Shown here: positions 1 through 64,000 of the stretch, piece by piece
How the letters are laid out: each line of letters opens with the position of its first letter
Position numbering within the stretch: position 1 is the stretch's first letter
Assembly: GCA_004335835.1 (NCBI GenBank)
Contig: RWJK01001732.1
Span: forward strand, 1-64,000
DNA: 64,000 nt
Direction: 5' to 3'
Source: Scenedesmus sp. ARA3
Taxonomy: Eukaryota; Chlorophyta; Chlorophyceae; Sphaeropleales; Scenedesmaceae
The notes under the pieces: generated by a model
Database searches by the model: none
What the model saw: the letters and a program-made list of their open reading frames with translations, nothing else
What the model was told of the DNA's origin: nothing
Translations under genes and position numbers: made by a program

Positions 1-59
1 TGCTGCTGCTGCTGCTGCTGCTGCTGCTGCTGCTGCTGCTGCTGCTGCTGCTGCTGCAG
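1..59 (+). repeat. (CTG)n tract forming a 3' splice site
   Basis: About 19 uninterrupted CTG units end in CTGCAG, and the WD40 exon starts at base 60. The repeat replaces the usual polypyrimidine tract. It is truncated by the window edge, so its full length is unknown. Confidence 0.9.
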
Positions 60-1981
60 GTCTGAGCACACACTGCCAGTCACATGCATCTACCTAGGCT
101 GTGGGGAAGGCAGCGCCCTACTAGCCACTGCCTCCCTGGACAGATCAGTCAAACTTTGGTCTTTGACCACGGGGCAGCTGCTGCGCACAATAACGCTGCC
201 GGCTGGCGTAACGTCAGTAACGTTAGATGCCGGGGAGCATGTGTTGCTTGCCGGCTGTGTGGATGGCAGTATCTGGGAGGCTCCGCTTGCAGGACAGCAG
301 CTAGCAGCACCCGCTGCTGCTGCTGCTGCTGCTGGTGGCAGTGGTGCTGCTGCTGCTGCCAGTAATGCCGCTGCGGCTGCAGCAGCAGCAGCTGGTGTGG
401 TTGGTGGTCCTGGCAGCTGCTGCTATGAGGGGCACAGCAAGGCGATCAGCAGCCTGGAGATCACCCCTGATGGAGAGCAGCTGGTGTCAGGTAGGACATG
501 TGGCCGGCTGCTCTGCTTGCAGCAACACCCAGCAGCAATCTTCCTGGCATGCCAGTCTCCTGCTGCATGCTCAAGCAGACATATATATCAAAGAGATCTG
601 CAAATGCGGATGATGTTGGTTGTCAGCAAGGCGCGGGGTAGCCCCCTGCTGTGTTGCTCCGTCAGCAGGTGCTTCAACAGCTGTACAGTGTAACAGACAG
701 TTTCAGGCATGGTAAATGCACAACTGCGCACCTTCAAGCAATGCTGGTCCAGCAGCCCCCCTGCCCGAAGGCTCCTGGCGCTGCAAGTGGGCAGTGTGCA
801 GGCATTGCTGCGAGTGCTCTTCAACGATGTCTCTCACACCCAACCTTGCACCCTACATAAACCTTGCACATTCTGCATCCTCCTGCAGGCTCCGAAAATG
901 GAACAGCACGCATCTGGGACCTGCGCAGCCGGCAGTGTGGCTGCTGATCAACAATGTGCTCACACACCCACCCCTGAACCCCAAACCACCTGCATGTATC
1001 GCTGCTGGCTGCAGGCTCAGAAGACGGCACGGCACGCATCTGGGACCTGCGCAGCCGCCAATGCCTGCGCAGCATTGCCAGCCCAAACAAGGCCCCTGTC
1101 ACTGCCGCGCTGCTGATGGCCTGGCCGGGGCACCTGGGGCCTGCAGGGTCTGCAGGCAGGCAGGGGCCCAAGCGGCTGCAGCCACTGGCTGCTCTGGCAA
1201 AGTTTGCAGGTGGGTGGGTGTGGCTGCCTAGTGTGTGATCATGTTTTGCTGCTGCTGCTGCTGCTGCTGAGCTGGCCGGGTCACCTGGGACCAGCAGGGT
1301 CTGCGGGCAGGCAGGGGCCCAAGCGGCTGCAGCCGCTTGCTGCACTGGCAAAGTTTGCAGGTGGGTGGGTGGAGCCCACCGGTTGGTTTGTGTCCAGTTC
1401 TTGCTTTTGCTGCTTGCATTCTGGGCGTTTCAGGAGCCACCGGCAATGCATTTGCACATGCCTCAATGGCCCGCAGTATGCATGTCATATCACGCATCCA
1501 GATGCCTCGGCGTGTGCAGTCACCATTTGAGGGCGCCGTGCATTGCTGTGCTGTTTGCTGCTGCTGTGCAGGTGCTGCTGGCACGAGCAAGCCATGGGAG
1601 GGTGCGCTCACTGTACTGGACGGCAGCCTGTGCAGCAACAGCAGCAGCAGCTGCAGCAATGCGGCCTCAACAGCAGCAGCTGTGGCTGGCCTGCTGCCGG
1701 GGCCACTCGCCAACCCCTTAGATCTGCTGCAGCTGCAAGGTTCTGTTGCTGCTCCTGCTGCTGCTAATGGAGGGTTGATCAACCAGCAGCAGCAAGGCAG
1801 CGGGCAGGGCTCAGGGCAGCAGCAGCAGCAGCAGGATGTGGCGCAGCTGCAGCAGCAGGTGGAGCAGCTGCAGCAGCAGCTGCAGGAATCTCGCCAGGTT
1901 GCGGGGCAGTGGCAGGCGCTGCATGGCGAGCTGCATCAGTTCTGCACTGACAAAGTGTTGGCTGCTGGCTTGGACGCGTAA
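60..1981 (+). CDS. WDR18/IPI3-like WD40 ribosome-biogenesis protein (3' part)
   Basis: The gene continues upstream of the window. Visible exons are 60-490, 1015-1209 and 1434-1981 (TAA), joined in phase 2/1/1. The first exon opens with SEHTLPVTCIYLGCGEG and runs through two WD repeats (DRSVKLWSLTTGQLLRTITL, then VDGSIWEAPL). The second has GSEDGTARIWDLRSRQCLRS. The last encodes a Q/L-rich heptad region (about 1826-1915) ending in a short helix. This order of WD repeats and then a C-terminal coiled coil matches WDR18 of animals, yeast Ipi3 and Arabidopsis RID3, part of the Rix1/PELP1-TEX10-WDR18 complex that processes ITS2 and matures the 60S pre-ribosome in the nucleus. Alanine and glutamine runs encoded by GCn/CAG repeats interrupt the blade loops. 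The family call is from motif order; exact orthology is inferred. Confidence 0.78.
889..1370 (+). repeat. Partial exon copies around WDR18-like exon 1015-1209
   Basis: 889-946 is a copy of the start of the 1015-1209 exon, with acceptor CTGCAG and the reading GSENGTARIWDLRSRQC; it then hits TGA. 1269-1370 is a copy of the end of the same exon, with its GTGGGTGGG donor. The complete exon lies between the 5'-edge copy and the 3'-edge copy. Confidence 0.85.
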
Positions 1982-62400: not shown

Positions 62401-62880
62401 TTCTGGAGGCAGCTGTACAACACGTCTGGCATGCCTGGGGTTCGAAGCTATATGCATTCCAGTCTGCAGCAGATGTTTCCGATGCAGTAGATCCCTGCCC
62501 CATATTTTGATGCATTCATGGTGCATGAGGACGGATGGCATCTTGTGAACTACGGGGCATCGCAGCGCAACGTAACCATCGAGTCGATTTACGCTTGGGC
62601 TGCGTCACCGCTAGGAAAGGGGCGTAATCTCTGCTTAGTCGGTGAGGCGTATTACGGCATCAGTCCCGGGTGGACTGCTGGCGCCTGGAGGACAGCAGCA
62701 CGATGCGTCAAGCAACAGTTTGCAGGGGTGCTGTCTGGATCTGCGCGTGCTGCGGCTGAGTACATCAGCAGTGGATGCAACGGGCTGCAGGTGTTTTCAA
62801 ATGAGGTTGTGCTGCCCAGGAACATGTCCATGCCTGGTTTAAACCCTGCCACTGGCAAGGTTCTGCCAGCAGACGAGTGA
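59484..62880 (+). CDS. Secreted FAD-dependent amine-oxidase-like protein (in-frame TAG)
   Basis: Exons 59484-59929, 60651-60833 and 61575-62880, phases 2 and 2, 645 codons including the stop. The start at 59484 (GCCATGG context) gives a signal peptide (STIATALALFLLLAAITYTA). After a Ser run comes the dinucleotide-binding fold TCRVLIVGGGAGGIFSAYML, then VCVVEKQKVWGGKLQ (E..GGK, FAD contact). Further on are a substrate-domain region (FFLDSPMTC, LIFASGPLDVRKL, FYTQRFWEGYMVHRYYNM) and a C-terminal FAD motif CLVGEAYYGISPGWTAGAWR resembling the GE..PG...GA end of flavin amine oxidases. TAG at 62488-62490 interrupts the frame, with clear homologous-looking sequence on both sides (QMFPMQ, stop, IPAPYFDAFMVHED). 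Either a nonsense allele, a base error (CAG to TAG) or readthrough. Exact substrate unknown. Confidence 0.72.
59885..61500 (+). repeat. Exon echoes in the FAD oxidase gene, including a 120-bp array
   Basis: The end of exon 1 (IGTAGLWIHG plus donor GTGAGGGGGAG and about 75 bp of intron) is repeated in tandem at 60009-60053, 60128-60172 and 60248-60295; spacing is about 120 bp and identity is near-perfect. Exon 2's 5' edge (VTLETSHANF) recurs at 60455-60515 and its 3' edge (EPLLTMQGGRYPAPAFNLTD) at 60965-61064. Exon 3's 5' edge (GCAGGTTGTGGGACTTTCTCC) recurs at 61232-61260, 61338-61375 and 61449-61490. Confidence 0.9.
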
Positions 62881-64000
62881 TGTGGTGATTGTGCTTGTTT
62901 CTTTGTTGCATCTGCGCTCTGTTGCCTCTTTGAACATGTTTGCATCCATCTTTGATGCTGATGTTGGAGCGAAGGTGGGTTGCAGCTGCAGTACTCTGAC
63001 GGTTTGGACGATGATGAGTTGTTCTTCGATGTTTCCTCCCCCTATGAGCCTCTCGTTGGCTCCTGACTGGGGTTCCCACTCCTCGTTGAGTGGAGCATGT
63101 AATGTAATGTAATGTAATGTAGTACAACAGCAGCCGCTGGCATGAAGTTGGGTGTGAAGTGATTTGTGTTTTTTCATAGCTGGAGCTTCTGAACTGCGTG
63201 TTGAGGCTGTTGAGCCACGCCCTTGGCAGCATTGAGTTGGCTGCAGTAGAGGTGGCAGTTGGCAGCACTTTGCAGGCGTGCCGTGTGGTGCTGCTGTCGC
63301 TGCAGCTAATACATAGGCAGTGGCTGCAATGCTGATGGTGTTTCTAAATGAGGTGGTGCTGCCCAGGAATGTGTCCATGCCTGGCTTGAACCCTGCCACT
63401 GGCAAGGTACTGCCAGCAGACGAGTGATGTTGGAATTATGCCTCGTTTCCGATGTTGCATGCATTGCTGTTGCATGCAATGTTGTTGCAATGTTGTTAGT
63501 TTTGAGCTCTGTTGTTACTTTCATCATGTTTGCAGCCGTCTTGATGCTGGAGCCAAGATGGGTTGCAGTAGGACAATGACCGCTGGCCCTCATGCAGTTT
63601 TGATCAAGTTGGATGTGGGTTGTTGTTTTGTGTAGATTTGTAGTCGGAGGCTTCTGAACTGCGCTGTGTTGAGGCTTTTAACGCTGCTTGCTGCAGTGCA
63701 ATGCGGCTCATAAACAGTGAGGGAGCGGACGTCACACAGTGTTGCTTGCGGGTCTCATCGCACCTTGATTGTGGCACGAATGTTAGCAGGGGGACACTGA
63801 GCCATGCCATTAGCAGCATTGTGGTGGTTGCAAGTTGAGAGTTACATGTCCTACGCATCAGAATGCCTGGGAATGTCTTCATGCCAGCCTTGAACCCTGC
63901 CACTGGCAAGTGTTGCCGAACTATGAGTGATGGTGACTGCGAACATGCTTCCTTGCACTCTGTTCTCAGCCTATCATGCTCCACAGAACTCCTTGACATC
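62881..64000 (+). repeat. 3' flank of the FAD oxidase gene with two duplications of its coding end
   Basis: The coding end MPGLNPATGKVLPADE-stop is copied at 63343-63427 (nearly exact) and 63850-63930 (frame-shifted, MPALNPATGK). The following UTR-like block (TGATGTTGGAGC.AAG.TGGGTTGCAG) is copied with it, so two tandem units of about 520-540 bp follow the gene. No further gene is seen to the window end. Confidence 0.85.
63098..63120 (+). terminator. Tandem TGTAA poly(A)-type signal
   Basis: TGTAA is repeated about four times head to tail, some 218 nt after the stop codon of the FAD oxidase gene. TGTAA is the usual chlorophyte polyadenylation signal. Its use here is inferred. Confidence 0.5.

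Follow-up and report, generated by a model that had tools for sequence, protein, structure and literature searches.

Why do the introns of an alga carry partial copies of the ends of the exons that they separate? The question is raised by a stretch of 64,000 nucleotides, bases 1-64000 of contig RWJK01001732.1 (hereafter the window), in the 87.27-Mb, 1567-contig assembly of Scenedesmus sp. ARA3, where an initial annotation described decayed, ordered copies of exon edges in nearly every gene. We found that the introns of many, although not all, sampled genes hold such copies, here termed echoes: ordered partial copies of exon ends, about 60 bases long, which lie in the neighbouring introns and in most cases terminate in their own recognisable splice site.

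Within the window we modelled the MscS, LHCII and FAD genes and the N-terminal part of FO synthase, four of the eight genes that had been named, with WDR18, F-box/LRR, SGNH and UQCC1 standing outside the remodelled set and the counts. The wider sample comprised 20 kinesin (PF00225) and 4 Cpn60/TCP1 (PF00118) loci with exons located genome-wide, 9 further kinesin and 6 further Cpn60_TCP1 loci lying outside it; exon ends at these loci are the ends of family matches, approximate rather than those of full gene models. Three matches of this Pfam search (L046 1665-1761, L047 1612-1696 and L047 8286-8394), which in the present reading are echoes, cover profile positions that adjacent matches also cover and resemble echoes; we left them out of the exon lists on these grounds, a choice that uses the idea under test. 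Each exon was compared with its own locus, and repeats were counted after masking of triplet runs. Pairs taken from one array are not independent, and all data come from a single assembly of one strain.

All 111 echoes identified in this search were in the sense orientation, with every copy of a 5' edge upstream of its exon and every copy of a 3' edge downstream, across four window genes and 24 other loci. The MscS gene and the 24 kinesin and Cpn60_TCP1 loci gave 83 (36 upstream, 47 downstream and none antisense), LHCII and FO synthase gave 7 and 9, and the FAD gene and last MscS exon gave 9 and 3, each set being ordered without exception (83/83, 16/16 and 12/12). Most of the 83 matches start within 10 bp of the edge, with a median reach of about 65 bp into the exon, although two lie 156 and 176 bp away from it. 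Five of the 111 echoes copy a coding end rather than a splice donor (two of FAD exon 3 and three of MscS exon 9). Such a one-sided order arises when a segment straddling an exon junction is duplicated head to tail and, one intact exon being needed, the copy adjoining the remainder of that exon is the one retained in use; the straddling duplication that had been proposed is thus supported, and at the sampled loci beyond the window every copy lay on the predicted side rather than on either side at random. Because straddling duplication forces this order, the 111 of 111 cannot discriminate between mechanisms.

Other parts of the initial description were more qualified. "Nearly every gene" was too strong: we found echoes in the four window genes, in the Cpn60_TCP1 loci L046, L047 and L048 (best PDB relatives CCT epsilon, alpha and beta) and in 4 of the 20 kinesin loci, and the echo search found none in the other 16 kinesin loci or in the Cpn60_TCP1 locus L049. 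A link between echo presence and transcription would be a guess. The term "decayed" fits the six echoes with an in-frame stop and the 13 with a frameshift, whereas 81 of 99 are free of both. The proposed expansion of introns was borne out, with a median length of 677 bp for defined introns with echoes (n=27) versus 240 bp for repeat-free ones (n=46).

We investigated the repeat landscape in which the echoes lie. The window contains 120 direct repeat pairs at offsets below 1 kb, covering 24.9% of it, and the 18 stretches sampled on other contigs, each 5.2 to 10 kb long, likewise hold only direct pairs below 1 kb, with offsets densest at 110-130 bp and a second rise at 220-260 bp. Together with the echoes at other loci, these repeats place the phenomenon far outside the window, as had been supposed. 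Repeat density is uneven, ranging from none in 4 of the 18 stretches to 48 pairs in one 10-kb stretch; L014, L015 and L016 (10 kb) are without any direct repeat, whereas L021, L023 and L025 have 30 to 48.

An unlikely explanation for this landscape is ordinary tandem duplication, in units of about 120 bp and at any position in genes, with whole-exon and intra-exon duplications removed by selection and neutral decay of the remainder. It agrees with the exclusively direct orientation (0 inverted pairs below 1 kb in the window and the 18 loci), would force the observed order, and suits the copies at coding ends, which have no splice site. It also agrees with the sharp size mode: the nearest-copy offsets of 50 exon sides have a median of 125 bp (interquartile range 117-151) and span 97-335 bp, with 38 of the 50 falling in 97-153 bp, and for two edge-touching clusters outside this list the smallest offset is 88 and 92 bp, respectively. 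The placement of the repeats argues against it. Some exons of L046-L048 were undetected, and placement was counted in the 74 introns (35.4 kb) with contiguous profile or protein positions. These hold 42 repeat clusters, of which 38 touch an exon edge and 4 do not, versus 21.1 edge-touching clusters expected when units of the same sizes are placed at random among tolerated positions, a simple model in which longer preservation of exonic halves may inflate the edge share. The 13 clusters with a best pair at least 93% identical all touch an edge, versus 6.4 expected, although the identity filter itself favours edges. None of the 42 clusters in these introns touches both flanking exons. At all 50 exon sides at least 43 bp of exon remain past the breakpoint, whereas extents shuffled among exons put 4.5 below this value (P=0.0006, a flattering figure, as the threshold is the observed minimum). 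Exon splitting, in which a new exon would arise inside an old one, was rejected, as the 5' and 3' extents fit exon length no better than shuffled ones (15 exons, P=0.26).

The junctions themselves were examined in an ungapped average of 45 donor-side and 33 acceptor-side exon-echo pairs. Exonic identity stays at about 0.90 up to the junction, donor identity at +1 to +5 is 0.93, 0.93, 0.87, 0.62 and 0.91, and it falls to 0.53 at +6 and about 0.4 beyond. On the acceptor side the CAG is at 0.85-0.91, positions -4 and -5 are at 0.76 and 0.67, and identity farther out is about 0.4-0.5. Echo-echo pairs have a similar boundary profile, with about 0.5 past the donor. The dip at the fourth, degenerate donor base between conserved neighbours suggests that two working donors, rather than one copied tract, seem to be compared. 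Among 158 repeat pairs of 18 random loci, taken on both strands, a shared GTGNG is commoner close to the 3' end of the match, occurring at 26 of 4095 positions within 12 bp of it and at 30 of 12562 in the next bins, but at 33 of 8854 farther in, GCAG being uninformative.

Beyond the splice consensus similarity collapses, indicating that the adjoining introns are often unrelated. Over 45-bp segments, 88 exon-echo pairs have a median identity of 0.89 in the exonic part (range 0.71 to 1.00) and 0.56 in the spacer, and 68 echo-echo pairs have medians of 0.88 and 0.57, with the exonic part higher in 63 of the 68. Shuffled spacers average 0.49 with a 95th percentile of 0.57, and the spacer lies at or below that percentile in 47 of the 88 exon-echo pairs. 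Unrelated spacers that adjoin nearly identical exonic parts count against ordinary tandem duplication; the near-identical spacers of L048 exon 3 and of part of the six-echo array of L046 exon 7 speak for it. Edge placement, boundary and spacers are thus left unexplained by random tandem duplication unless exonic sequence is specially preserved, and the earlier suggestion of a plain duplication process acting everywhere is not supported, given the concentration at edges, the unrelated spacers, the boundary at the splice consensus and the nearly echo-free kinesin genes.

The same profiles bear on two further explanations. One, rather improbable, is that tandem duplicates were repeatedly overwritten by gene conversion from the exon, with the exonic parts of echoes refreshed while their spacers diverged: it suits L047 exon 4, where a 73-bp stretch is 100% identical between unrelated flanks, although conversion tracts should neither end at the splice consensus nor skip a degenerate donor base. 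Joining of diverged haplotypes or overlapping contigs during assembly is very improbable. The assembly is fragmented, and some arrays resemble two functional gene copies interleaved, whereas overlaps would be identical and the exonic parts of exon-echo pairs range from 0.71 to 1.00; some echoes carry stops or frameshifts of their own, arrays reach six echoes, and the kinesin genes, which belong to this assembly too, have hardly any.

Echoes might instead descend from old tandem duplications of which selection has preserved only the functional parts, working splice sites together with their exonic enhancer region, for instance as decoys or alternative sites, a reading that we regard as doubtful. 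In its favour, the polypyrimidine fraction of echo acceptors (0.670, n=32) equals that of real ones (0.668, n=30) and exceeds that of intronic YAG controls (0.473, n=1033), a control that is unmatched for CAG-repeat context, and CAG is intact in 26 of the 32. The retention of the donor consensus while bases from +6 onwards are near random, in echo-echo pairs too, the excess of exonic over spacer identity in those pairs, and the freedom of most echoes from stops and frameshifts point the same way. Against it, some echo donors and acceptors have been lost, and pyrimidine content decays slowly even without selection. Echo offsets show no preference for multiples of three (37, 28 and 30 with remainders 0, 1 and 2), so that inclusion of echoes as in-frame coding sequence is unlikely and was rejected. 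Splicing between echo and exon at internal AG|GT sites was likewise rejected, the few repeated edges inspected by eye including some without AGGT. CAG/CTG triplet runs occur in the window at 21 per 10 kb and often form the tract directly before an acceptor.

We also compared the codon positions at which the differences fall. Exon-echo mismatches fall 85, 75 and 285 times on codon positions 1, 2 and 3, a third-position bias stronger than gene conversion is reckoned to predict, and third-position divergence is about 17%. At the 28 exon sides with at least two echoes, changes private to the exon were distributed 6/1/45 over the three positions, those private to the nearest echo 10/13/18 and those private to the next echo 22/16/55; choosing the nearest echo selects for few changes, such that the contrast is overstated. 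The exon side appears to behave as coding and the echo side to be nearer free decay. The near-even distribution in nearest echoes is evidence against a coding constraint in the youngest ones, and it likewise speaks against the selection of echoes as splice sites.

Our preferred reading, which we put forward tentatively from these sequence comparisons, is repair of exon breaks by outward copying from a diverged template followed by end joining. A break would occur inside an exon, and one end would pair with another copy of the gene. Synthesis would then run outward past the exon edge and its splice site, some tens of bases into the intron, where the new strand could not anneal to the other broken end, template and recipient no longer matching outside exons, and the ends would be joined directly. 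The outcome would be an intact exon whose edge is new, a short spacer of foreign origin and, left behind in the intron as an echo, the former edge. Pairing would be open only to events initiated within exons, and this would confine copies to exon edges in the observed order. Echoes would then decay, and later unequal exchange between echo copies would build the arrays with matching spacers. The diverged template might be another allele, another strain or a former copy of the gene, and is the least certain step.

Edge placement, the exon remainder of at least 43 bp, the boundary and spacer profiles and the codon pattern, with the cases of LHCII exon 2 and MscS exon 7 described below, were counted for this copying model, which may also, with the same tentative standing, account for the confinement to edges and the exon remainder. 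Both it and the retention of echoes as splice sites treat the two compared boundaries as long functional. Exons might then seed the growth of their own introns, which would form a layered archive of earlier versions of exon ends, a possibility that we hold to be somewhat doubtful; continued function of the stranded edges as splice sites would be a bolder alternative to such an archive.

Several observations weigh against outward copying. A search of the assembly with one stretch of MscS yielded neither a second haplotype nor a paralogue of it, so that a diverged template was not seen there. A third-position divergence of about 17% is low for introns that can no longer be aligned, unless third positions are constrained. 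Pairs with matching spacers are expected to be without third-position bias, yet they kept it (third-position share 0.65 vs 0.62, P=0.63), spacer class being no predictor of codon bias. Averaging both echoes gives about 16, 14.5 and 36.5 private changes at positions 1, 2 and 3, a weaker contrast with the exon. Better preservation of exonic sequence could, finally, itself yield part of the edge enrichment.

For the MscS-like gene of the window, spliced alignment of the Tetradesmus obliquus protein P0002 yielded nine exons on the plus strand, separated by eight introns that all have GTG donors and AG acceptors. Exons 1-8 span 46183-52381 (46183-46401, 47653-47853, 48533-48634, 48899-49018, 49471-49568, 50192-50342, 50914-51066 and 51802-52381), the start of exon 1 being that of P0002, which begins inside this exon; the coding end in exon 9 (56582-56673) and three downstream copies of it occupy 56582-57064. 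The draft protein is 100% identical to a T. obliquus protein over 70% of its length, and over 74% its identity to a Scenedesmus protein is 95%. Four copies of the 5' edge of exon 6 lie upstream of the exon within 49764-50192, starting near 49764, 49873, 49982 and 50095 and each following a CAG, with two copies of its 3' edge downstream at 50515-50834. Copies of 5' edges were also identified upstream of exon 2 (two, 47421-47578), exon 5 (one, 49374-49407) and exon 8 (two, 51548-51749), and copies of 3' edges downstream of exon 1 (46441-46868), exon 2 (47920-48341) and exon 4 (one, 49090-49147), with a further 3'-edge copy for exon 7 (51231-51333), all on the plus strand. Exon 7 and its echo are an extreme case, with seven synonymous and no nonsynonymous codon differences, which by eye include serine codons of both types.

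On the minus strand, the LHCII gene as modelled from its drafted protein, the start of which sets that of exon 1, spans 13046-15935, with exons at 15935-15857, 15244-15117, 14648-14534, 13593-13490 and 13132-13046. Matches to PF00504 lie at 13502-13603, 14523-14672 and 15852-15959; the model lacks at least one exon, which a further match at 16274-16363 marks and which was left out of the counts. The repeat pairs 16125-16191/16270-16336 and 16331-16403/16458-16530 lie, on the minus strand, at the places expected for 3'- and 5'-edge echoes of this extra exon, and are uncounted. Exon 2 has two 5'-edge copies upstream (15476-15413 and 15363-15300) and two 3'-edge copies downstream (14778-14951), while 3'-edge copies lie downstream of exon 3 (two, 14207-14384) and exon 1 (one, 15735-15770). 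With LHC paralogues as outgroup, several exon-echo differences of exon 2 look like changes in the exon: at exon position 107, for instance, the echo keeps the base of the paralogue, and other differences are private to the echo, the numbers being small. A paralogue as template of the LHCII echoes was rejected, as each of the two echoes searched resembles its own exon no less closely than the paralogue, the first at 94% over 64 of 64 bases (paralogue 94% over 50 of 64) and the second at 96% over 73 of 73 (paralogue 86% over 63 of 73).

The CofG-like part of what we take to be an FO synthase, a name that rests on the sequence-only first reading and a motif, was drafted on the plus strand with exons at 7779-8063, 8633-8795, 9143-9308, 9951-10111 and 11198-11311. 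Its radical SAM match is weak, at 23.6 bits and under the Pfam cut-off. An array of 3'-edge copies of exon 4, three of which the echo search detected, lies at 10165-10582, and one 3'-edge copy of exon 2 lies at 8850-8911, both on the plus strand.

The FAD oxidoreductase-like gene, with exons at 59484-59929, 60651-60833 and 61575-62877 on the plus strand, shares no more than 67% identity with the best-matching T. obliquus relative, and is for this reason probably a paralogue or a fast-changing gene. Three 3'-edge copies of exon 1 follow with a period of 121-122 bp (60005-60293), exon 2 has one 5'-edge copy upstream (60457-60499) and one 3'-edge copy downstream (60956-61064), and exon 3 has two 5'-edge copies upstream (61341-61491) and coding-end copies downstream at 63262-63424 and, shorter, at 63864-63910, all on the plus strand. 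The model contains an in-frame TAG at 62488-62490, opposite an amino-acid residue of the T. obliquus relative, which may reflect a pseudogene, a sequencing error or unmodelled splicing.

Pfam scans of 20 single open reading frames of the window gave real-looking radical SAM, FAD-binding and LRR matches, the FAD match alone exceeding its cut-off, and one further match, below cut-off, to a glutamine-rich stretch; Rfam and tRNA scans of the window found no RNA family and no tRNA. A 62-bp stretch is 100% identical at 2241-2302 and 12693-12754, 10.4 kb apart, the second copy lying near a run of N and possibly being an artefact of gap filling. The kinesin locus L044 holds about seven 111-bp units at 1066-1788 with no exon detected within them, perhaps an undetected exon edge. 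In L046 a plant-type telomere-like motif, AACCCTAAAC, lies near an acceptor at about 1318-1339, with similar motifs near a few others, and AACCCTAAA occurs 25 times in 314 kb, on both strands.

Finally, we compared the echoes with known systems. Introner elements, in which one family occurs at many loci, have changed introns on a genome scale in algae and other protists. The echoes are alike in the scale of change and unlike in that the two stretches tried occur at their own locus only (196-bp and 1701-bp queries, which matched no other contig in a search that skips common words).

Intron gain or growth by internal tandem duplication, the AGGT model, is reportedly due to Rogers in 1989, Gao and Lynch in 2009 and Hellsten in 2011. 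It shares with the echoes the presence of duplicated exonic sequence, carrying splice sites, inside an intron. There, however, the duplication creates the intron, which has the length of the repeat period, whereas here the intron is far longer than the period (median 677 bp for introns with echoes versus 125 bp for the nearest-echo offset), holds several edge copies and often has unrelated spacers.

Repair of double-strand breaks, among other ways by copying and then end joining, is also said to produce short tandem duplications, as in work attributed to Salomon and Puchta in 1998 and to Vaughn and Bennetzen in 2014. Such duplications too are direct head-to-tail copies of tens to hundreds of bases; to our knowledge, they have not been tied to exon edges or to the joining of foreign spacers. 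Ordinary random duplication does not explain the confinement of echoes to exon ends or their preservation. The tight size and sharp boundary of the echoes make models of break repair, conversion and splice-site selection separable by comparison of strains and by RNA reads, and, in genomes of this kind, false exon edges will confront both gene prediction and homology searching. Intron growth is usually argued from old and blurred remains, whereas here its steps are kept as an ordered series at many exons.

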